A stretch of 48,381 nucleotides of DNA from an uncultured bacterium (GCA_905235605.1 CAJOMF010000004.1:1-48381); one strand, 5' to 3'; shown: positions 2,667 to 45,794, counted from the first letter of the stretch. Notes: a model not told the origin generated them from the sequence alone. Program-made: numbers and translations.

Positions 2667-2685
2667 CTGCAGGATTTTAAAAAAC

Positions 2686-2713
2686 TTGCCTTTCTTTCCT
2701 CTTTCCTTATTAT
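2686..2713 (+). promoter_or_regulatory. Promoter-like element before the heptamer repeat
   Basis: TTGCCT, a 16-bp spacer and TATTAT. A GAGGAG ribosome site (2733-2738) and a TTG codon (2745) follow, so the complete start signals of a gene are present. Confidence 0.45.
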
Positions 2714-2744
2714 ATGCAGTATTTGATTTTTTGAGGAGATAATT

Positions 2745-2840
2745 TTGTTAACAGAAAATATAAATTTTGCGGATCAGGAATCAGGAATCAGGAATCAGGA
2801 ATCAGGAATCAGGAATCAGGAATCAGGAATCAGGAATTAG
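2745..2840 (+). pseudogene. Stunted ORF: gene start running into heptamer repeats
   Basis: A TTG start six bases after GAGGAG opens a frame of 31 codons. The first ten (L-T-E-N-I-N-F-A-D-Q) look like ordinary coding sequence. The rest is three copies of a seven-residue repeat produced by the tandem heptamer, ending at a TAG made by one variant repeat unit. I read it as the 5' end of a gene whose body was lost or replaced at the island boundary. A short translated leader is the alternative. The parent family cannot be identified. Confidence 0.4.
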
Positions 2841-2848
2841 GAATCAGG
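2772..2848 (+). repeat. Tandem heptamer array, (AATCAGG) about 11 copies
   Basis: Eleven consecutive 7-bp units. Nine are exactly AATCAGG, the first is GATCAGG and the tenth is AATTAGG. The 7-bp period is not a multiple of three, so changes in copy number would shift any frame reading through it. There is no spacer structure, so it is not CRISPR. The AT-rich stretch from 2849 to 2964 holds no recognisable gene. Confidence 0.95.
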
Positions 2849-2964
2849 AATCCGCGTTCAATTATACCTAATTTAAATTTTAAGTCAAGTTTTTCGACTA
2901 AAAAAATTCAGAATTTTTCAATAATTTTAGGAACTTTACATCAACATTTTTAGGAGAAAAAGAG

Positions 2965-5235
2965 ATGAACATTTCTGCAAAAATCGACCAGATCATTGCT
3001 TTAAGAAAAAGCAAAATCAAAATTTTGAAGGAACAAAAAGAACGTTACAGCAAAATTAAAGAACGTGTCGCTGAGTTTGACAGATTCAAATCAATGCTCC
3101 GCAACAACCCGGAAAAGTTTGCTGCAATACAAGGTAATCAGGAAATAATCAACGGAATCACCGCTATTTCCACCGAAGATTTTCACTCCACCTTCAACAA
3201 CTATATGACAAAGTTAGATCAAATGATAAAACGTCTCGGCCGGGATAATCTCAACATCAGCTTTGTCGGTAGAGCAGGACAGGGGAAAAGCCTTGTAATG
3301 CAGAGAATCAGCGGATTGAACGGGGATATTATTCCAGCTTCTGACGGATCTGACTGCACCGGAACAAAATCTGTCATTCATAACTGTTCAGGCAGTAAGG
3401 TTGTCGCAACGATCAATTTCTTCAATGAATCCGAAATGGTAGGAAATGTTAACAAATATATAGATAAAATAAACAACGGTTCAAAAAGCAGCATAAAAAG
3501 GATAAATTCAGCGAGTGAAATACCGAATATAGACATATCATCAATTCGCAGCGCTATTCTGATGGATGATGTTGAAAGTAAATCTATCCTTGAACACTTA
3601 TCAAAATATGTAGAACATTATTCCGATTATTCACCCTATTTAGGAGAACAAAAAACTGTTTCCGAAACAGAAATAGAACGTTATGTCGCTCAATACAAAA
3701 ATGGAAATCCATCTGAAAAATATTTCCTCTATTTAGGAGTCAAATTTGCCGATATAATGTGCAGTTTTCCCCACTCCGATACAGGAAAAATTGAACTCGT
3801 TGATACAATAGGAATCGGAACAACATCTCTTGCAACGGAAGAAAAAATGCTTGACACGGTTGAAAACGACAGTGATGCCATCATTTTTATGTTCAGACCC
3901 GATGCATACCGTCCGAGGATAAGCAGTGACGAAATAGATGTTATAAAAAAGATTTCAGCAAGAGTAACCCCTGAATATTCCAAAGAAATGCTCTTTTGGG
4001 TTATAAACCGTGTAAATTCAGGGAAAGGTCAGAACTCAGCTTTTATTCCCGATATAGTCAGGCTGGCAGAAAGAGGCGATTATCCTGTCGCAAAAGTTCT
4101 TGATGTAGACTGCTTCTCAGATGATGAAGTTGAAAAAAAACTTCTTGTTCCTGTTTTGGAGCAGTTGGCCTCAAGAATCAAAGCTGTGGACAAGATGCTG
4201 ATAGAAAAACTCAATAAGTTGGGGGAAGATTCATATTCGGCATACCATCAAATCTGTAACGGCACCGAAAAAGCTTTGGCGAATTCCGCTTCGGAAGATA
4301 TGAAACGCCAGTTCTACAGTAAAATCGGAAAAACTAATGCAACATTGCTGAATAATCTTAGAGACCTTTTCCTCATTAAATATAACGAACTACGCAATCA
4401 GCCTTGCGTAGAATTTGAAGAAGCAAGCAACAAAAAACTCAAAAACATAATAACAAAATGTATCCCATCAAAAGAAGAAATAATGGAAATGCTCTGCAAC
4501 GGAAATAAAAACCAGCTGAATGTATATGAAGATTCGACCAATATTATGCGTATAAAAATCATTGACGACTTCAATGAACTCAACAATGTGCTGAACAGTG
4601 TAATCGAAAACATGAAAAAGGAAGTTCTCCATATTTTATCAGATCCAGATCTCGGCAATCTCTCTTTAATCGAACCTTTTAACGATCAGATATCTTCTTT
4701 CGAGTGGATAACACGATTCCTTGAAAAGACTAATGCTGAAGAAAAATATCCGGTTCTGGCCGACGCTTTGATGAAATTCAATGAGTATTCAATAAATGTT
4801 CAAGGGTTTCTGATTCATAAAATCCGCAACCAGCTTGATCCGATAGATTCGGCACTATCAGGAAGTATGCCAACAATTTACAGTCCGCTTTCTGACAAAG
4901 AAGACGTAGCGCAGGAAATTATTGTTCTGCTCCAAGAATGTGCGTCAAAAATAAAGGAAAATATAGATCATCAGATCTCAGATCTAAGCAGTGACCCGAA
5001 TCTTTCAATGTTTGCAGCAATAAAAGACCTCTACGACAGACTGACCTACGCCGGAGGAAACGACGAGACACAGACTCAGTGGCGTTATCTCTATGAAGAC
5101 TGGATGCATCTGATATGGAAAGATGAATACGAAGCAAAAAGCGGTCTTGTAACCGTGGCAAAGCAGTGGAACGAACTCGTTTCTCAGCTGAAAGATAACG
5201 ACAATCAAAAATATTTTGTTATATCGCAAGACTAA
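2965..5235 (+). CDS. Large dynamin-like GTPase, first gene of the three-gene cassette
   Basis: The 756-aa protein begins with a Lys/Glu-rich helical region (residues 1-95, probable coiled coil). A GTPase domain follows: G1 GRAGQGKS at 102-109, a candidate G2 Thr in DCTGTKS near 120-126, G3 DTIG at 280-283, and a weak G4 at INRVN (347-351) in place of NKxD. The wide G1-G3 gap and a long helical C-terminal half (about 400-756) without membrane segments fit the dynamin/GBP-like organisation rather than a Ras-like GTPase. The start follows AGGAG. The DNA is visibly AT-richer than the flanking housekeeping genes. It lies 12 bp before the second GTPase gene. The exact family was not recognised and the function is inferred from context only. 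Confidence 0.75.
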   Translation: MNISAKIDQIIALRKSKIKILKEQKERYSKIKERVAEFDRFKSMLRNNPEKFAAIQGNQEIINGITAISTEDFHSTFNNYMTKLDQMIKRLGRDNLNISFVGRAGQGKSLVMQRISGLNGDIIPASDGSDCTGTKSVIHNCSGSKVVATINFFNESEMVGNVNKYIDKINNGSKSSIKRINSASEIPNIDISSIRSAILMDDVESKSILEHLSKYVEHYSDYSPYLGEQKTVSETEIERYVAQYKNGNPSEKYFLYLGVKFADIMCSFPHSDTGKIELVDTIGIGTTSLATEEKMLDTVENDSDAIIFMFRPDAYRPRISSDEIDVIKKISARVTPEYSKEMLFWVINRVNSGKGQNSAFIPDIVRLAERGDYPVAKVLDVDCFSDDEVEKKLLVPVLEQLASRIKAVDKMLIEKLNKLGEDSYSAYHQICNGTEKALANSASEDMKRQFYSKIGKTNATLLNNLRDLFLIKYNELRNQPCVEFEEASNKKLKNIITKCIPSKEEIMEMLCNGNKNQLNVYEDSTNIMRIKIIDDFNELNNVLNSVIENMKKEVLHILSDPDLGNLSLIEPFNDQISSFEWITRFLEKTNAEEKYPVLADALMKFNEYSINVQGFLIHKIRNQLDPIDSALSGSMPTIYSPLSDKEDVAQEIIVLLQECASKIKENIDHQISDLSSDPNLSMFAAIKDLYDRLTYAGGNDETQTQWRYLYEDWMHLIWKDEYEAKSGLVTVAKQWNELVSQLKDNDNQKYFVISQD

Positions 5236-5247
5236 GGAGGTAAAATT

Positions 5248-6315
5248 ATGGAAGAAGTAAAAGTCAACGTTATGATGTTCGGGGGAAAACGCTGCGGAAA
5301 AACAAGCGTTATTGCAGCGATGAAAGACTGCTTCGGGGAAGTATTTAAGCAGGATTTATCTATTTTCTCTTCTGATGCGACATCTCCGATTCTGGAAGAC
5401 AAGCTAAACGAAATCAAAGATTCTTTCAATCTTGTAGATAAAGGAAGAACTTTCTCTGAAGATACTGCAGACTATAGCGGCACTTCAGAAATAAATGAAT
5501 ATAATATCTCGATTCAATTAAAGAAGTTACAAAAGGGAAAAAGCCTTATTAATCTGAACTTTATCGATTATCCGGGAGAATGGATAAAAAACAATCGCGG
5601 AGATGTCAGCGAGATAATGAAAAAAAGCCGCATCATTATGATTACAATTGACACTCCTTTTCTCATGGAGCATACACGTGACAACAAAAACGATTCAGTA
5701 GGCAGATACAATAATAAGAGAAATTCCTGTGATGCTATTGCAGATATGCTGCAAAACTCCTTTAGCGATGTAAACGACCAGACTTTTCCGATTATGATAA
5801 TGTTTGTCCCTCTTAAATGTGAAAAATATTACAATGCCGGAAAAATGAATCTTGTAAATGAGAAAATACATGCCGCCTACAAAAAAGTTTTCGATTTTGT
5901 GTCAGACAAATATCGGAAGATTTTTGAAGTTGCAATAACTCCGATCCTTTCTTTCGGCCCGAAAGGAATTGAATTCAGCCGTTTTGAAACCGATGAAAAT
6001 GGAGAAATAAAAGAAAACGCCGCAGGAATACCGGCAAATCCAATATATATTTTCAAAGCCCCCAAAAAAGAAGACAACAAATACTCTCCCCTGTATTGCG
6101 AACAGCCTATCCTCTATTCTCTGGCATATCTGTTGAGTGTTGCAGAAAAAGCAAAAAAAGAAGAACCTTGGTTGGTATGTTTTTTTACAGAATTCTTCGG
6201 CGGAGCTGCTTCTTTATATGATTTTATGGAACAAAAGAAAAAAATCATAAGAAATCTCAAAACAGAGGGCGACGGCTTCGAAATCTTTCAAGATCCGTTA
6301 GGATTTAAGGAGTAA
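5248..6315 (+). CDS. Second cassette GTPase, double-GTPase (DO-GTPase)-like family
   Basis: The 355-aa P-loop protein has G1 GGKRCGKTS at 12-20 and G3 DYPG at 107-110 followed by EW. A strand ending in IDTPFLME comes next, then VPLKCEKYY at 187-195 where NKxD would be expected, then ITPILSFGPKG, and a late YCEQPILY motif. The DYPGxW / VPxKCE / CEQP combination resembles, from memory, the TRAFAC GTPases called DO-GTPases that occur in predicted conflict operons. No membrane segments are seen. A TAAGGAGG site precedes the ATG. The gene sits 12 bp after the first GTPase gene and 2 bp before the third gene, so one transcript is likely. Confidence 0.7.
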   Translation: MEEVKVNVMMFGGKRCGKTSVIAAMKDCFGEVFKQDLSIFSSDATSPILEDKLNEIKDSFNLVDKGRTFSEDTADYSGTSEINEYNISIQLKKLQKGKSLINLNFIDYPGEWIKNNRGDVSEIMKKSRIIMITIDTPFLMEHTRDNKNDSVGRYNNKRNSCDAIADMLQNSFSDVNDQTFPIMIMFVPLKCEKYYNAGKMNLVNEKIHAAYKKVFDFVSDKYRKIFEVAITPILSFGPKGIEFSRFETDENGEIKENAAGIPANPIYIFKAPKKEDNKYSPLYCEQPILYSLAYLLSVAEKAKKEEPWLVCFFTEFFGGAASLYDFMEQKKKIIRNLKTEGDGFEIFQDPLGFKE

Positions 6316-6317
6316 AA

Positions 6318-7049
6318 ATGAAAACTCATATTTATGCGAGTTATAACAGATCGGCACCCGGTTTTTATTATGGCTGGTTCGATAACTCTCAAATTCAGTG
6401 TGATAAATTTCGCCCAGAAATTACGGATTCTCCCATATCAAAAATCTTTGAAACGGGCTACATTGATAATGTTGTCGGCAACATTTCCAAATACTGCAAT
6501 ATTGATTCCGGAGATTTTATTTTGTTGTATAAACGTCTGAAATATTCATATTCTGACGAAAAACTGGAATCCAAGCGTTTAAAATATAATTATGCCGACG
6601 AGAAAGACAAAGATCTCGGCAAAAATTTTATTATAAACATCGCCTTCACATTTGAAGGAAATGAAGTGAATAAATTCAAAAAATTCCACTCCTACTTCAA
6701 ACAGGAAGATGAAAAAACTATTGCCGAACTGCTTGCAGATTCCTTAATTCCCGACACAAACGATAACATTTTCGGATACTATATCGACGGCAAAATTTTC
6801 CAGCAATTTTTAGATGCAGCATCAAACCATCCATCTGATTCAAATAATTCTGAAAAAATAGAAGAATCTCTTGTTGTCGCAGTCAACAATTCTCAAGACA
6901 AGCGAGCCGATTTGAAAGAAAAATTTCATTTGCAAGACGACTGTCATTTCTCTTATGAAGCAAACAACAAACGTTACCGAGCTGAACAAGAACAAGCAAC
7001 TTCTTCTCAAAAGAATTGGTCAAACCATATAGTACAAAAGATTGGCTAA
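6318..7049 (+). CDS. Unrecognised third protein of the GTPase cassette
   Basis: The 243-aa soluble protein belongs to no family I recognise. The N-terminus (T-H-I-Y-A-S-Y-N-R-S-A-P-G-F-Y-Y-G-W) is aromatic and Gly-rich and may be an enzyme or ligand-binding core. Residues 72-85 and 86-99 form a diverged tandem duplication of 14 residues (KRLKYSYSDEK / KRLKYNYADEK). The C-terminal 50 residues are hydrophilic and probably flexible. AAGGAG precedes the ATG, 2 bp after the second GTPase stop. As the shortest, least conserved-looking member of the cassette it could be the adaptor or effector switched by the GTPases; that is inference. Confidence 0.65.
   Translation: MKTHIYASYNRSAPGFYYGWFDNSQIQCDKFRPEITDSPISKIFETGYIDNVVGNISKYCNIDSGDFILLYKRLKYSYSDEKLESKRLKYNYADEKDKDLGKNFIINIAFTFEGNEVNKFKKFHSYFKQEDEKTIAELLADSLIPDTNDNIFGYYIDGKIFQQFLDAASNHPSDSNNSEKIEESLVVAVNNSQDKRADLKEKFHLQDDCHFSYEANNKRYRAEQEQATSSQKNWSNHIVQKIG
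6531..6614 (+). repeat. In-gene tandem duplication, 2 x 42 bp
   Basis: Two adjacent 42-bp units encode KRLKYSYSDEK-LES and KRLKYNYADEK-DKD. Differences are spread over all codon positions, so the duplication is old rather than a fresh slippage event. Confidence 0.7.
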
Positions 7050-7092
7050 AATTGCCTGTATTGAAAAATCAGTGATTTCAAAAAGTTCACGG

Positions 7093-7156
7093 TGTCCGCA
7101 ACGCAGATCAGCGCACGGTTTCACGAAATAAGGGATTGAGGTTTTCAGCAGATTTT
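7093..7156. repeat. Imperfect direct repeat, left copy flanking the AbiE pair
   Basis: This 64-bp segment pairs with 8742-8804 at about 80 percent identity, including identical TGTCCGCAA and GCGCACGGTTTCAC blocks at a constant offset. It begins in the gap after the GTPase cassette and ends at the stop codon of the AbiEii-type gene. Confidence 0.8.
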
Positions 7157-8042
7157 AATTCCACCGTCCTTCTTCAGGATTCCATGTGGATATGACATCT
7201 GCTGTTTCTTCAAGAAGAGGTGTCACAAAGATTTTTATTCTTTCCATTGCATCAGACATCGATACTTGGATTAGTGCATTTTTCTTTTTCATAAAGGCTT
7301 TCCACCTTGTCCGGTGCATGGGATCAGAGAGGAAATCTTCACCGAAAGCAGCTGAATCCATCGTTATTTGAGTCTTTCGATTCCCGAATGTTTCTGTTAC
7401 GGCGTTTTTAAGTTCAGAAAAGGCAAATGAGAATTTTTTGGAGAGAACATAAATATCATAAAAATCCTTGTATCTGCTGTTCAGATATCCGTTGTGGATT
7501 ATCGCTTCCAGCTTTTCCGCGATTGACGACTCCAGCGAATAGGCATTGACTCGCGGCGGCTCCATGTCGAGAATTACAGGAAAATCCATTTTTACGGAAT
7601 TCGGATAGATGACATCACCGAAACCTATATCGATGCTTATCGGAATCTTTGTCCTGTCGAGGCAGGCAACCGCGGATATGCGAAGACCGTGATACTTCTT
7701 GAATTCTGCAATATCCTCGATCATAACTGAATCCGGAGCAAATATCAGCGCGTCATCTATTTCCTGCGAAAAAATATCCCGAAATATTTTTTCCATATCA
7801 TCTCTGCTGTTGGAGATTCTGCGTGCAAGCAGGTCAATATCCGTTGTGGCGCGTTCATAGCTGCGGTCAAAAACCGCATAGAGGAAAATCCCGCCTTTCA
7901 GAACAAAATGTTCGGAGTATTCGGAAACAGCGATTCTGTAAATCGTCCGCTCCAATCCGTAATATGTCAGTGCTTCCTGAAAAGTTATTCCGTTTTTGAC
8001 AGCAAAATTCTTAAGCCTTGCTTTTACCGATTCAGCATTCAT
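7155..8042 (-). CDS. AbiEii-type nucleotidyltransferase toxin
   Basis: The 295-aa protein has the DNA polymerase-beta-like nucleotidyltransferase signature of AbiEii/AbiGii toxins: LKGG at 48-51, then TTDIDL at 66-71 with the metal-binding Asp pair, a later ISIDIGFGD strand, and a KLEAIIHNG...RYKDFYDIY segment. Type IV AbiE toxins are paired with an AbiEi antitoxin encoded just upstream and stop growth during phage infection; related toxins add nucleotides to tRNA or other RNAs. The start shares one base with the AbiEi stop (TAATG), so the two are co-translated. The 3' end abuts the left copy of the flanking repeat. Confidence 0.9.
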   Translation of the reverse strand: MNAESVKARLKNFAVKNGITFQEALTYYGLERTIYRIAVSEYSEHFVLKGGIFLYAVFDRSYERATTDIDLLARRISNSRDDMEKIFRDIFSQEIDDALIFAPDSVMIEDIAEFKKYHGLRISAVACLDRTKIPISIDIGFGDVIYPNSVKMDFPVILDMEPPRVNAYSLESSIAEKLEAIIHNGYLNSRYKDFYDIYVLSKKFSFAFSELKNAVTETFGNRKTQITMDSAAFGEDFLSDPMHRTRWKAFMKKKNALIQVSMSDAMERIKIFVTPLLEETADVISTWNPEEGRWN

Positions 8043-8620
8043 TAAAGCAGCACCTCCAGATATATTCTGAGAATCTTTTCGCAGCGCAGACGCTTTGCAT
8101 AGTCGTAAAGCCTGTCGATCTGCCGGTCTTCGCGTTTAAGATAATTTCTAAGGATTTCGGACATTTCTTCGATTCCTACTTTGTTTCTGTAGTAGACAAT
8201 ATCGACCACAGTTTTTTCAATATCGAAAATATGAAAAATGTTGTCTCCTTCGCGAACTTCGGTGACTCCGATCTCCATTCTTGAAGAATCAAAGTAAAAA
8301 ATCCTGACTGCAGGCCATTCTGGAAGAGTGACGACCTTTTTACTGCGCTCGATCGCCACATCCACGGCATCAGGCAGAAAGTTGGTAAGCCCGTAATAGC
8401 GTGCGGCACTCATCAGACATATAACCCCGTTGCGGACAAAGGCTTCGGCACTGAAAAAATCGTTTTCATCGCCTTTATATGAAAGATTCTCGTAAGTTGT
8501 GCGGTTTATCCTGTGCAGAAAACCTTCATCTTCAAGTCTGCCGAGCTTGTAATAAGAAAACCCCAGACTTTTAAGTTCGTCGATCGTAACAAACTTTTTG
8601 CTTTCAGTAATTGCATTCAT
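8042..8620 (-). CDS. AbiEi-type antitoxin/transcriptional regulator
   Basis: The 192-aa partner of the downstream toxin. An N-terminal winged-helix-like region (about 1-60: a VTIDELKSLGFSYYKLGRL helix-turn-helix, then RINRTTYEN) is followed by the AbiEi C-terminal region (LMSAARYYGLTN, VDVAIERSKK, IFDIEKTVVDIVYYR). The frame is open to 8680, but the ATG at 8620 has GGAGG eight bases upstream and is preferred. Family members repress their own operon and neutralise AbiEii. A promoter and inverted repeat lie immediately upstream. Confidence 0.88.
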   Translation of the reverse strand: MNAITESKKFVTIDELKSLGFSYYKLGRLEDEGFLHRINRTTYENLSYKGDENDFFSAEAFVRNGVICLMSAARYYGLTNFLPDAVDVAIERSKKVVTLPEWPAVRIFYFDSSRMEIGVTEVREGDNIFHIFDIEKTVVDIVYYRNKVGIEEMSEILRNYLKREDRQIDRLYDYAKRLRCEKILRIYLEVLL

Positions 8621-8639
8621 GTCAATCACCTCCGCATAA

Positions 8640-8667
8640 ATCATACACTTTTCCTTACAAATTTCAA
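8640..8667 (-). promoter_or_regulatory. Promoter of the AbiE operon
   Basis: On the minus strand, TTGAAA, a 16-bp spacer and TATGAT. The predicted transcript would start only about 13 bases before the AbiEi ATG, giving a very short leader whose first bases are the GGAGG site. Confidence 0.5.
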
Positions 8668-8672
8668 CTAAT

Positions 8673-8698
8673 TTCTGCAATTATTTTTATTAGCAGAA
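8673..8698. promoter_or_regulatory. Candidate operator: inverted repeat upstream of the AbiE promoter
   Basis: TTCTGC and GCAGAA face each other across a 14-bp AT-rich centre, just upstream of the -35 box. Known AbiEi proteins bind inverted repeats in their own promoter, so this is a plausible autoregulatory site. The arms are only 6 bp and chance cannot be excluded. Confidence 0.3.
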
Positions 8699-8741
8699 TT
8701 TAATCAAAAAAAACTAAGAAACAGAATCAACATCTTGCTTC

Positions 8742-8804
8742 TGTCCGCAAAGCTAAATAGCGCACGGTTTCACAAAATAAAGGCTTGATTTTTCAGGAGA
8801 TTTT
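8742..8804. repeat. Imperfect direct repeat, right copy flanking the AbiE pair
   Basis: Partner of 7093-7156. It spans the last 35 bases of the ORF6N gene (stop at 8770) and the gap beyond it. The left copy therefore looks like a degraded copy of the ORF6N gene 3' end, whose reading frame partly survives (LLKTS against LLKNQ). Confidence 0.8.
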
Positions 8805-9465
8805 CAATCAGCGGCTTATAAATTTCATTGTCCGCAATAGTCGTAATTGAACAAACTCTGCTTCCTGCATCTTTTGAAGATGCACCGCAATGATAGATGA
8901 TCTCGTTTTCAGTGCCGAAATCTATAATGATGTATCTGTCGTGAAAAATGCCGTTCGTGCGTTTGAAAGAAATAACAACTTTCGGATATTCCTTGCAGAA
9001 ATCATCAAATTCTTTTTGATGCAGCCCCTTTTTCAAATTGTCGGTAAATATCGTGATTTTTAAATTTTCAGGTACAGATTTCAAAAGAACAAGCGTTTTC
9101 AAGCTGATGTAATTGTCAATCACAAAAAAATCACCGCGAAGAACTGTCATTAGCATGTAAATTCCTTGCTCGGTAAAGGCGTAAGGCTTATATTTTATGT
9201 TACTTCCACGACCAGTGTTCAAGGTCAAAATTTTTGACCTTGAACGTATCAATGAAATTTTTTCTAATTCTTCCCAAGTAACTTGGAAGCGAAAATCTTC
9301 ATCAAATTTCTCAATATTATTCTTCACTTGCTGATTAAATGCTTTGACAGAATAACCATAAATTTCAGCCAGATCAAAGTCGAGCATAACCTGTATTCCG
9401 CGAATCGTGTAAATTTTCGACCTCAAATCTGTTTCGCTGTGAATCATTACAATTTCATTTTCCAT
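8770..9465 (-). CDS. ORF6N-domain protein with PLD-like C-terminal half, probably internally shortened
   Basis: Residues 13-112 form an ORF6N (KilA-N-type, phage-associated DNA-binding) domain: IYTIRGIQVMLDFDLAEIYG, FRFQVTWEELE, YAFTEQGIYMLMTVLRG. The C-terminal half (115-231) has NYISLKTL, then FHDRYIIID and YHCGASSKDAG, an HxD-type phospholipase-D-like half-site known from longer ORF6N fusion proteins. In those relatives, from memory, several dozen residues separate the domains; here LMTVLRG runs straight into DFFVIDNYIS, which suggests an in-frame internal deletion. ORF6N proteins are typical of prophages and islands. The 3' end overlaps the right flanking repeat. The 256 bp between this gene and glmM hold no gene and no clear promoter. 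Confidence 0.75.
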   Translation of the reverse strand: MENEIVMIHSETDLRSKIYTIRGIQVMLDFDLAEIYGYSVKAFNQQVKNNIEKFDEDFRFQVTWEELEKISLIRSRSKILTLNTGRGSNIKYKPYAFTEQGIYMLMTVLRGDFFVIDNYISLKTLVLLKSVPENLKITIFTDNLKKGLHQKEFDDFCKEYPKVVISFKRTNGIFHDRYIIIDFGTENEIIYHCGASSKDAGSRVCSITTIADNEIYKPLIENLLKNQAFIL

Positions 9466-9721
9466 TTCGAACCTTAAAGAAAAATTTTCCGATAAAGAAA
9501 ATAAAAATTTAGATAAAAAATCAAGTTTTATTTTTTATATTTAAGAATTTTTTCCAATTTGTAGCATCGACTTACAGAAAGATAAAATGTCAAAAATGCG
9601 AATAAGTTTTTCAACACTATTGACATGATAAAAAATCGTAAAAATGCGTGGATTTTCTTAAAATATATGTGTATAGTTCCAGCGTTTTTTGTTTTGCTTG
9701 AAGCGTTAAAAGGAGAAAACT

Positions 9722-12528: not shown

Positions 12529-12570
12529 TTTCTTATAAAAGTAAAAGTTATGAATTTTGGGGGCGAGGCT

Positions 12571-13515
12571 ATGGAAAATGAATTAAATTCGACGTTGCGG
12601 CAAACTCAAATAACAGATCTGGGTACGGAACTGTTCTACTCTGTCCCCGAGAAACAGAGCGACATAAGGCATTATAAAAACGGTGAACTTTACCACCTTG
12701 ACTGTGTAGATTTTTTGCGTCAGATTGATTCAAGCAGTGTTGACACGGTCTTTGCCGATCCGCCGTACAACATCAAAAAAGCGGACTGGGATAACCTCGG
12801 CTCGGCAAACGAATATATTGCATGGTCAATGCGCTGGATTAAGGAATCCGCAAGAATTCTGAAAGAGACCGGCACTCTCTATATATGCGGTTTTTCCGAG
12901 ATTCTTGCCGATTTAAAATACCCATGTTCAAAACTCTTCAAAAAATGCAAGTGGCTTGTTTGGTATTACGACAACAAAGCAAACATGGGAACAGACTGGG
13001 GAAGGAGTCATGAAAGCATATTATGTCTAAGAAAAACAGATAGTTATACTTTCAACATCAACGATATTAGGATCCCCTACAATGCTCATACGCTGAAATA
13101 TCCGGAACGTCGGCAAAGCGGGAAAACAAGTCAGTTCTACAATCCTGAAACTGCCGGAAATTTATGGACTCCCAACCCTCTCGGAGCAAAACCGAAAGAT
13201 GTTTTGAATATTCCGACGACCTGCAACGGAATGGGCGAGAAGACAAAGCATCCCACTCAAAAGCCGGAAGAACTTCTCCGCAAATTGTTGCTTGCAAGCA
13301 CAAACGAAGGTGATTTGGTCGTAGATCCGTTTTCCGGTTCAGGTACAACCGCAGTTGTTGCAACACAGCTGAACCGCTTTTTCAAAGTAAATGACAAAAA
13401 CGAAGAATATAATCAAATGGCACACTCACGATTAAGCAATGTTGTAGAAAAAACCATTCAGGAATGGATCGAGTTCGACCGTAAAAACAATGAGCGCAGG
13501 AGAAGCATACGATGA
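12571..13515 (+). CDS. Type II DNA adenine/cytosine amino-methyltransferase (beta class)
   Basis: The 314-aa methyltransferase has the catalytic motif DPPYNI starting at Asp63 and the AdoMet-binding FSGSGTT at 254-260 with HPTQKP before it. DPPY preceding FxGxG defines the beta class, which methylates adenine N6 or cytosine N4. The frame opens at 12550, but the ATG at 12571 follows GGGGGCGAGG and is preferred. It overlaps the next gene by ATGA, so modification and restriction enzymes are coupled, with the methylase first. The pair interrupts a run of cell-wall genes and is AT-richer than them, which indicates acquisition. Confidence 0.9.
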   Translation: MENELNSTLRQTQITDLGTELFYSVPEKQSDIRHYKNGELYHLDCVDFLRQIDSSSVDTVFADPPYNIKKADWDNLGSANEYIAWSMRWIKESARILKETGTLYICGFSEILADLKYPCSKLFKKCKWLVWYYDNKANMGTDWGRSHESILCLRKTDSYTFNINDIRIPYNAHTLKYPERRQSGKTSQFYNPETAGNLWTPNPLGAKPKDVLNIPTTCNGMGEKTKHPTQKPEELLRKLLLASTNEGDLVVDPFSGSGTTAVVATQLNRFFKVNDKNEEYNQMAHSRLSNVVEKTIQEWIEFDRKNNERRRSIR

Positions 13516-14411
13516 GCAGAATAACACTATACCGACTTCTTGACGATCTTGAATCAGATAATAAGGATTTGAACTGGTTTTTGGATTTTGCAGGCAATTA
13601 TTTGGAATTCACACGCTTCGGAGAATCGATAAAGCCTAATATTCAAGCAGAAATAATATCAGTCAACGAAAGTAACTATCATTTTTTTCAGTATAAGGAT
13701 GACGGCAAAAATTGTATCACACGCCCGATAAACACGAACCTTTTTGTCACTTTTGCAAACTTTGACAGCGCCAAATCAAATTTTTTATATGCGTTAAAAA
13801 ACATCAGAGACATTTCCAAAGAAAACGCTCTGCGCCAAACAATAAATAAAGTGGTCTATACCTGCCAGCAGAGTATTGGCTGCACTCTCGATGCAATCAA
13901 CAACAATTCAGCGAAGAAAAAAAACGGGATTCTTTTCGAAGTTTTGATAAAAAACATTGTGGCAGGCTGCGGGATTGATGTTGATGACAACAGCGAGATT
14001 GTGCATTTGCCCGGCAGTCGGGAGACTATGAAATTTGAGCAGGATATTATTCTACTTGATTCAAATAGACACACAAAGGCCGTAGGACAGCTGAAGACAT
14101 CATCTAAAGATAGAATCGACAAAATTTTCTTAGACAAATTTATGTATAATAAATTGAAAGAAGTGGACATTCCGCACTTTGCCATTTTTTTGAATGATGT
14201 CCAGCGTAAAGACAGCAATCTGGCGAAATACGGAATCAGTTCGACATTCCTCCCCGGGCACTTTAAAGCTTACACCATCGCACTTAATCCTTTGGACGGA
14301 GTCTACTACATTGATTTACGTCCATCTATATCATCAGACAAATTCCTGAAAAAACATATCAAACAGTTTGACACATTTTTAACTGAAGATATGTGGGATT
14401 TCATCAAATGA
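13512..14411 (+). CDS. Probable type II restriction endonuclease (PD-(D/E)XK-like)
   Basis: The 299-aa protein is assigned mainly by its overlap with the methyltransferase. Internal features agree: KNGILFEVLIKNI (helix Glu near residue 143), a candidate catalytic core with Asp178, then GQLK at 192-195, then TSSKDR, a combination seen in PD-(D/E)XK nucleases. The middle acidic position is Gln193 instead of Asp/Glu, a known but less common variant. The recognition sequence cannot be read from the sequence. It ends 10 bp before uppP. Confidence 0.7.
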   Translation: MSRITLYRLLDDLESDNKDLNWFLDFAGNYLEFTRFGESIKPNIQAEIISVNESNYHFFQYKDDGKNCITRPINTNLFVTFANFDSAKSNFLYALKNIRDISKENALRQTINKVVYTCQQSIGCTLDAINNNSAKKKNGILFEVLIKNIVAGCGIDVDDNSEIVHLPGSRETMKFEQDIILLDSNRHTKAVGQLKTSSKDRIDKIFLDKFMYNKLKEVDIPHFAIFLNDVQRKDSNLAKYGISSTFLPGHFKAYTIALNPLDGVYYIDLRPSISSDKFLKKHIKQFDTFLTEDMWDFIK

Positions 14412-44297: not shown

Positions 44298-44326
44298 TTG
44301 ATTTTCTCCAATAAATGCACTAAAAT
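44298..44326 (+). promoter_or_regulatory. Promoter of the second AbiE pair
   Basis: TTGATT, a 17-bp spacer and TAAAAT. The GTG start lies 20 bp further on, with GGAGG between. Confidence 0.6.
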
Positions 44327-44346
44327 TGCAGTTGGAGGTGAAAATA

Positions 44347-44934
44347 GTGATTATTTCAACTCAAATGCTTTTGGAAAAATATCGAGATTACGCCAATCCG
44401 CATAGCAAAATCAAGCGGTTGAACGACAAAGGCGAAATTTTTTATCTGACACGCGGACTCTACGAAACAGACAAAAACACCCCAGGATACTGCCTTGCCG
44501 GAGCGATATACGGCCCCTCTTATCTTTCATTCGACTACGCGCTTTCACGCTACGGCCTTATTCCCGAAGCGGTCTACGCCTTTACATCGGCCACTTTTGA
44601 AAAGAAGAAGGCGAAAAAATACGAAAATCACTTCGGCACTTTTCTATACCGCGACGTTCCTTCCGCCGCCTATCCTTTCTGGATCCTCATCAAGGAAGAA
44701 AACGGCTCTTTTTATCAGATCGCGGAACCGGAAAAGGCGCTCTGCGACAAACTCTACACCATGCCGCCCGTAACAAGTCAGAAAGATATTGAAAAAATGC
44801 TTTTTGAGGATCTGCGGATCGACGAAACTGAGTTCGCGAAACTAAATACCGGCAATATTTTGATGATCGGCGAAAAATATCGCTGCAACAACCTGAAATA
44901 TTTGATGAAATTCCTGCGGAGAAACACGAAATGA
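44347..44934 (+). CDS. AbiEi-like antitoxin of the second pair
   Basis: A protein of 195 residues that starts at a GTG after GGAGG (the upstream ORF start at 44326 lies in the promoter). It begins IISTQMLLEKYRDYANPHSK, a winged-helix-like region with RGLYETDK, continues with a GPSYLSFDYALSRYGL core and an AEPEKALCDKLY motif, both of the AbiEi/regulator class, and differs clearly in sequence from the AbiEi at 8042. The toxin gene overlaps its stop (ATGA). It probably represses the operon and neutralises the toxin. Confidence 0.85.
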   Translation: MIISTQMLLEKYRDYANPHSKIKRLNDKGEIFYLTRGLYETDKNTPGYCLAGAIYGPSYLSFDYALSRYGLIPEAVYAFTSATFEKKKAKKYENHFGTFLYRDVPSAAYPFWILIKEENGSFYQIAEPEKALCDKLYTMPPVTSQKDIEKMLFEDLRIDETEFAKLNTGNILMIGEKYRCNNLKYLMKFLRRNTK

Positions 44935-45794
44935 ACGGGATAGTCACCGAAATGCTGAAAAAATACAGCACAGAATCAGTTTTTGACAAAAAAAACGCCG
45001 TTAAGGAAATCATGCAGGAACTTGTTCTATGCGGTCTTTCGCGTGCAGGCTTCTTCAAACACGCCGCATTTTACGGCGGGACCGCGTTACGCATCTTCTA
45101 CGGCCTCGACCGTTTTTCGGAAGATCTGGATTTTTCCCTTACGGCACCCGATCCTGATTTCGAACTTTCGGAATATTTCCCCGATTTGAAAAAGGAACTC
45201 GCTTCATACGGGCTTAATGTCGAAATATCGGAAAAGCGGAAAACCAAAGAATCGCCTGTCCGCTCGGCATTTTTGAAAGGCAATACCAAAGAACATTTTC
45301 TTCTTTTCTACGCATCATACTCCGCAGCAGCCGGAATCGCCGGAGACGAAATGATAAAAATCAAATTCGAAGTCGACACCAATCCGCCGGACGGAGCGAA
45401 TTTCGAACACAAATACCGCCTTCTCCCCTCGCCTTACGAAATCACGCTTTACGACATGCCGTCACTTTTCGCGGGAAAAGTCCATGCCGTGATATGCCGC
45501 GCATGGAAAAGCCGCGTCAAAGGCCGTGATCTATACGACTACATATTTTATCTTTCACGCGGAACAAAACTTAACACCGGACATCTGAAAGCCCGGCTAG
45601 TGCAGTCGGAAGCATGGAAAAATGAAGACAACTTCACAGTTGAAGACGCCAAAAAGCTGCTATGCGAACGTTTTGACACTATCGACTACGAACAGGCGAA
45701 AAACGATGTCCGCCCGTTCATAAAAGACGCTGCCGCGCTCGGTATCTGGAACGCAGATTTTTTCAAGCGGATAACTATAGAGGCGGGTTTATGA
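44931..45794 (+). CDS. AbiEii-type nucleotidyltransferase toxin of the second pair
   Basis: The 287-aa nucleotidyltransferase has the AbiEii signature AFYGGTALRIFYG (46-58) and FSEDLDFSL (62-70), with a later MIKIKFEVDTNPP strand supplying another acidic residue and GRDLYDYIFYLSRG. The family transfers nucleotides to RNA and arrests growth. Its start overlaps the antitoxin stop. It is a different subfamily from the AbiEii at 7155, where the core reads LKGG...TTDIDL. Confidence 0.9.
   Translation: MNGIVTEMLKKYSTESVFDKKNAVKEIMQELVLCGLSRAGFFKHAAFYGGTALRIFYGLDRFSEDLDFSLTAPDPDFELSEYFPDLKKELASYGLNVEISEKRKTKESPVRSAFLKGNTKEHFLLFYASYSAAAGIAGDEMIKIKFEVDTNPPDGANFEHKYRLLPSPYEITLYDMPSLFAGKVHAVICRAWKSRVKGRDLYDYIFYLSRGTKLNTGHLKARLVQSEAWKNEDNFTVEDAKKLLCERFDTIDYEQAKNDVRPFIKDAAALGIWNADFFKRITIEAGL

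Follow-up and report, generated by a model that had tools for sequence, protein, structure and literature searches.

Does a short run of three genes, two of them encoding GTPases, form a self-contained system, and if so, of what kind? The question is raised by a 48,381-nt stretch of DNA from an uncultured bacterium (GCA_905235605.1, CAJOMF010000004.1:1-48381; the whole stretch analyzed is here called the window), for which an original prediction had proposed an undescribed conflict or defense system in which two GTPases together gate a third protein.

The cassette and its insertion site

All three genes were found as open reading frames on the plus strand, exactly where a three-gene cassette with gaps of 2 to 12 bp had been predicted. 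Gene 1 (2965 to 5235, 756 aa) encodes a dynamin-like large GTPase with a GxxxQGKS P-loop and a DxxGxG motif, gene 2 (5248 to 6315, 355 aa) a DO-GTPase2/YcjX-like switch GTPase recognized by the Pfam model DO-GTPase2, and gene 3 (6318 to 7049, 243 aa) a fast-evolving third protein placed by its operon position; 12 bp separate genes 1 and 2, and 2 bp separate genes 2 and 3. The predicted motifs are present as well, i.e., GRAGQGKS (residues 102 to 109, including Lys108) and DTIG (280 to 283) in gene 1 and the P-loop Lys18, DYPGEW, VPLKCE, and CEQP in gene 2. A GC content of 0.36 to 0.38 over the cassette, compared with about 0.44 to 0.52 in the flanks, agrees with the AT-richer island that had been described.

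This island (2667 to 9721) sits between tgt and glmM and contains, in addition to the cassette, an AbiE pair and an ORF6N gene, neighbors already named in the original prediction and confirmed by Pfam and PADLOC matches. They lie outside the trio on the minus strand and comprise an AbiEii toxin-type nucleotidyltransferase (7155 to 8042; Pfam PF08843, 4e-42), its AbiEi-type partner (8042 to 8680; PADLOC AbiEi, 3e-85), and an ORF6N-domain gene (8770 to 9465; Pfam, 4e-30) that corresponds to the PADLOC candidate PDC-S05. Upstream of gene 1, the heptamer ATCAGGA forms a tandem array of 11.4 copies (2773 to 2852).

The tgt-glmM junction is empty in the sister species G006, G007, and G011, where 12 bp lie between the two genes, and the window therefore carries a 7-kb insertion (2667 to 9721). 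In G012, the same junction holds another insert, about 5 kb long, and in G009 tgt and glmM are separated, with a copy of the cassette on another contig. Since the junction is empty or filled differently across sister species, it is a reused integration spot. The G012 insert (L130, 2135 to 6461) contains ORF6N-related genes, a RhuM-like gene, and a DUF1016-like gene that is of the PDDEXK type by eye; downstream of tgt in G009 (L131, 1840 to 7974) lie two large genes whose predicted products are lipoprotein-like and contain many GDPIM repeats.

Further genes of the window deserve mention in their own right. A PTP-SAK/DSP-type phosphatase gene (257 to 856; Pfam, 9e-14), which also matches the model of the Tc-R-P polymorphic-toxin-system phosphatase, lies immediately upstream of yggS and tgt. 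In a region of lower GC content, a DNA methyltransferase gene precedes one that resembles type II restriction enzymes (12550 to 14411; PADLOC REase_II, 3e-64). Far from the AbiE pair of the island, two genes at 44326 to 45794 resemble a second AbiEi/AbiEii pair by eye.

Two GTPase families in a recurrent, mobile trio

By its sequence, gene 2 is placed among the DO-GTPase2/YcjX-like GTPases: it scores 30.7 bits against the Pfam family DO-GTPase2 (cut-off, 27), with DUF463/YcjX below the cut-off, and DO-GTPase2 matches 13 of the 14 members of the gene 2 family. The hallmarks of this family are D-Y-P-G-[EGK]-[WY], P-[VLI]-[KR]-C-E, and [ED]-Q-P-[LI], and in some relatives the G3 motif reads DPSGE. 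At the position of the DO-GTPase Walker B glutamate, the window protein has E (DYPGE), and the wider family has E (28), G (24), or other residues.

For gene 1, the match of the window protein alone to Dynamin_N is weak (E value of 0.09), and the model matches 11 of the 14 members of the family alignment, with a best value of 2.4e-10. The claimed GTPase identity of both proteins was thus recovered, via the family alignment for gene 1 and above the Pfam cut-off for gene 2. GxxxQGKS and D-x-[PI]-G-[LI]-G are present in all 82 gene 1 relatives, and because the motifs of genes 1 and 2 recur across relatives in this way, they are regarded as family hallmarks and not as chance; the invariant glutamine of GxxxQGKS can be taken as the mark of the gene 1 family. 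The closest PADLOC family to the gene 1 relatives is LeoBC, with weak matches (best, 5.6e-9). Profile matches in the PDB are likewise weak and include immunity-related GTPases, mitofusin, and, probably by chance, helical apolipoproteins. No transmembrane segment is predicted in gene 1, whose product, with its GxxxQGKS P-loop, is classified as a bacterial relative of the dynamins.

When 84,980 species genomes were scanned for degenerate patterns with the gene 1 alignment, 159 relatives were found, and 79 of these loci were examined. The hosts are mostly cyanobacteria, many of them filamentous, together with some Chloroflexota, one Pseudonocardia, and two proteobacterial metagenome-assembled genomes. 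Genes 2 and 3 follow in order beside gene 1 at 62 of the 73 loci where 2.5 kb or more of sequence lies downstream of gene 1, usually with gaps of a few tens of bases; the gene 1 relative stands without genes 2 and 3 at 11 loci with enough sequence. An independent search starting from gene 2 led to three distant genomes, each of which has the full trio. The neighborhood survey proposed with the original prediction therefore found the trio co-occurring elsewhere, the opposite of homologues that never co-occur. When the window and its sister were left out of the profiles, the window proteins scored 4e-98 (gene 1) and 3e-49 (gene 2); the window and sister copies form a deep, separate branch.

Pairwise divergences of the three genes are correlated (Mantel r of 0.78 for genes 1 and 2, 0.79 for genes 1 and 3, and 0.84 for genes 2 and 3; 2000 permutations, all p<=0.0005), a correlation to which shared host descent contributes. 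The flanking genes vary between loci, gene 1 relatives are found on ten plasmid records, and the cassette is sporadic, occurring in 2 of 15 genomes of the genus and in 5 of 386 genomes of a wider sample. No constant fourth gene accompanies the trio; lineage-specific genes of about 150 aa were seen in just two groups of cyanobacterial loci. Taken on these comparisons, the trio is a real, conserved, horizontally mobile three-gene unit. A viral origin was considered and rejected, with no relatives in the IMG/VR contigs and gene 2 absent from phage records.

The DNA block common to the copies in the window and in G009 extends from 2773 to 6992, its 5' boundary being the ATCAGGA array. Synonymous divergence between the two copies (dS of 0.25 for gene 1 and 0.20 for gene 2) is far below that of yggS (0.59), glmM (0.74), and tgt (0.84) of the same species pair; the cassette therefore moved between the two sister species after their split. 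The dN/dS ratios of 0.10, 0.05, and 0.23 for genes 1, 2, and 3 show that all three are under purifying selection. Gene 3 is uneven in this comparison: its dS is 0.41 at the 5' end and 1.23 over the last third, where amino acid identity drops to 55%, a sign of recombination or of rapid change there. ATCAGGA arrays are present at four other places in the genome (contigs C13, C33, C109, and C115), which rules out a cassette-specific switch. Because the shared block starts exactly at one array and copy numbers differ between the window genome and the sister species, the data suggest that these arrays serve as recombination points.

The third protein

Gene 3 of the window has no Pfam, no PADLOC, and no significant NCBIfam match. 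A housekeeping protein was thereby ruled out, and the protein remains as unrecognized as it had first been described. At distant loci, the gene directly after gene 2 (family A11) encodes a domain of about 220 aa that is also without a Pfam match. One C-terminal membrane helix is predicted in 57 of 62 gene 3 relatives; since it is lacking in the other five, it is usual but not defining. Gene 3 of the window and of the sister copy is without this helix. The tails are variable and comprise Ig-like repeats (L055), WD40 (L050), pentapeptide repeats (L066, without a helix), and coiled coils.

The AF2 model of the distant domain is of high quality (pLDDT, 92.3; pTM, 0.89). That of the window protein, guided by a joint alignment with the family, reached a pLDDT of 61.7 and a pTM of 0.56, with a core (residues 101 to 170) at a pLDDT of about 72 to 88. 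A Foldseek search of the family domain against the PDB gave no significant match (all E values >= 0.01; TM-scores, normalized to query length, around 0.3 or lower). The weak list includes many GTPase regulators of the longin/DENN type (FLCN, FNIP2, GATOR1, KICSTOR, SEAC, DENND10, and VAMP7), as well as TagF; PAS/LOV folds score like the longin-type matches. Longin domains again head the weak list for the alignment-guided model of the window protein, and a fold search of a viral library returned nothing usable. A profilin/longin-like alpha-beta scaffold is therefore proposed for the domain with low confidence, the fold class being tentative because of these E values, these TM-scores, and the equal standing of PAS/LOV.

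Is gene 3 of the window a member of this family at all? A HMMER search with the family profile did not find it. In a single profile-profile comparison, it is co-linear with the family over 71 columns (E value of 0.015), and its single-sequence hhalign score was equaled by 8 of 167 unrelated controls (p about 0.05). It shares position, spacing, and predicted core topology with the family, the topology being taken from the alignment-guided model. Bridging relatives were found neither in 25 genomes of its class, apart from the sister copy, nor in plasmids. Homology of the window protein to the third-gene family, linked mainly by position, is nevertheless likely.

In the distant relatives, the weakly longin/profilin-like model and the C-terminal membrane anchor suggest that the third protein is a membrane-bound regulator or adaptor more than the gated effector of the original prediction, and the dynamin-like product of gene 1 is the likelier membrane-acting output.

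Known systems, proposed function, and rival explanations

None of the three families is listed as a system in PADLOC, which gave a weak LeoBC-like match for gene 1 and none for genes 2 and 3. The Leo/Eleos system (LeoA and LeoBC; PMC4159319) resembles the trio in its large dynamin-like GTPase, its short operon, and the weak LeoBC matches of the gene 1 relatives. The trio differs in lacking the LeoA-LeoBC pair, in having a DO-GTPase2/YcjX-like protein as the second GTPase, and in a third gene that does not encode a GTPase. DynA, SynDLP, and other bacterial dynamins (PMC8844932, PMC10104851) share membership of the dynamin superfamily, whereas the papers found contain no description of a GxxxQGKS family with two fixed partner genes. 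Roadblock/longin regulators such as MglB, GATOR1, and FLCN are weakly similar to the model of the third-gene domain, which is set apart from them by low TM-scores and the lack of a sequence match.

The GTPase-centric conflict systems defined by a DO-GTPase and GAP1 (Kaur et al. 2020, PMC7159879) are close in organization: a DO-GTPase2 gene is present, a small operon joins the switch GTPase to a partner with variable and often membrane-bound extensions, and both kinds of system are frequent in multicellular bacteria. The kinship of gene 2 with these predicted systems upholds the link to double-GTPase conflict operons drawn at the outset. Unlike them, the trio has a constant dynamin-like GTPase partner and no GAP1 domain at any trio locus scanned. 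No GASH or FNIII component was seen, and no conserved extra gene lies beside the trios, whose flanking genes vary; dynamin is not mentioned in the text of Kaur et al. The trio would thus work like the DO-GTPase/GAP1 systems and may share ancestry with them, and it fails the defining GAP1 test.

We propose that the trio is a mobile, self-contained conflict system, most likely directed against phages and related to but distinct from the DO-GTPase/GAP1 systems, a proposal for which we see about an even chance. The anti-phage role is derived from the island location, mobility, and patchiness of the cassette, its AbiE and ORF6N neighbors, the kinship of gene 2, and the precedent of DynA, which delays phage lysis and protects membranes against antibiotics in Bacillus (PMC8844932). 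In this scheme, the gene 2 protein would be a nucleotide-dependent switch that holds a threshold, and the gene 3 protein a regulator or adaptor that binds a GTPase, detects the trigger, and relays it to the switch, being in most relatives presumably tethered to the membrane by its one C-terminal helix and bearing variable tails. Once released, the dynamin-like protein would assemble on the membrane and remodel or seal it, so that phage release might be limited or the infected cell shut down. Gene 3 of the window has lost or never had the helix, and membrane contact would therefore come from gene 1.

The main rival, possible though somewhat unlikely in our judgment, is an envelope-stress or membrane-maintenance module, in which the dynamin mends or remodels the membrane when the switch formed by the DO-GTPase and the third protein senses damage of any kind. 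The two activities of DynA, i.e., protection against antibiotics and delayed lysis, fit this explanation, as do the DO-GTPase gene reported in phage-shock-protein operons (PMC11237479) and the membrane anchor of the third proteins in relatives; the patchy spread, the plasmid copies, the island, and the recent transfer between sister species would be unusual for general upkeep. An upkeep or transfer function for the plasmid or island itself, by addiction or by a manipulation of the host membrane that benefits the element, would account for movement between sites and for plasmid-borne copies, two of which lie beside a TrsK-like transfer gene. Most copies have varied neighbors without recurrent transfer genes, however, and viral contigs and, for gene 2, phage records gave no match, which makes this function quite improbable.

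The trio could also be a variant of the DO-GTPase/GAP1 systems with gene 3 as a drastically diverged GAP1-N domain. It would occupy the same genetic slot beside the DO-GTPase, and GAP1-N2 proteins of the actinobacterial type have a gene 3-like size and layout (240 to 257 aa, or 373 to 403 aa with a C-terminal helix). The top hhalign segment even pairs the D-x-x-x-R hairpins of GAP1 and the third-gene family, but its scores are at the decoy level, and the GAP1 profile scores 15.7 against the family, hardly above the 14.8 of a reversed decoy. There was no GAP1 profile hit at the trio loci, no GAP1 family among the matches listed for 45 gene 3 members, and no relative of genes 1, 2, or 3 at four GAP1 loci; GAP1-N2 was also not found in the genus or among 59 genomes related to G074, a genome with the trio; three of those 59 have the trio themselves. 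A further point in favor is the Stanieria plasmid pSTA7437.02 (L162, 5761 to 13667), where a gene 1 relative (1.7e-211) and a DO-GTPase1-like gene below the Pfam cut-off are accompanied by a 992-aa protein that is GAP1-like by eye only and then by a 473-aa protein; this locus may link the trio to the GAP1 systems. Overall, we consider such a diverged GAP1-N domain improbable; gene 3 as a plain GAP1 was ruled out with a cleaned set of 42 GAP1 sequences, which gave decoy-level scores. Stand-alone GAP1-N2 proteins of 240 to 257 aa were also seen at L194 to L199, each beside a P-loop GTPase-like gene of about 300 aa in a minimal two-gene layout; the genomes are of the actinobacterial type.

If the trio is an anti-phage defense system, dynamin-mediated protection and a DO-GTPase threshold switch would be joined in one portable three-gene unit that includes an undescribed third-domain family. 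Such a unit would offer a compact system in which to study how a membrane-remodeling machine is armed by a GTPase switch, a question shared with eukaryotic Mx, GBP, and IRG immunity. In a more far-reaching version, which is in our view rather unlikely, the trio would represent a widespread and undescribed class of immune switch: an antiviral dynamin would be controlled by a switch of the DO-GTPase type and by a longin-like regulator tethered to the membrane. If true, this would be a bacterial parallel of eukaryotic dynamin-family immunity (Mx, GBP, IRG) under longin-type control.

Other arrangements of related GTPases were observed. Contig C9 of genome G000 (L093, 4596 to 11201) carries, as a second and distinct cluster, genes for three large GTPases (859, 754, and 573 aa), the middle one being a distant gene 1 relative (E value of 6e-71), with a RhuM-like gene and an unidentified 532-aa protein nearby. 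On plasmid pNsp_h of Nostoc ATCC 53789 (L163, 3134 to 8646), a dynamin of the gene 1 type (881 aa) faces three divergent DO-GTPase-like genes.
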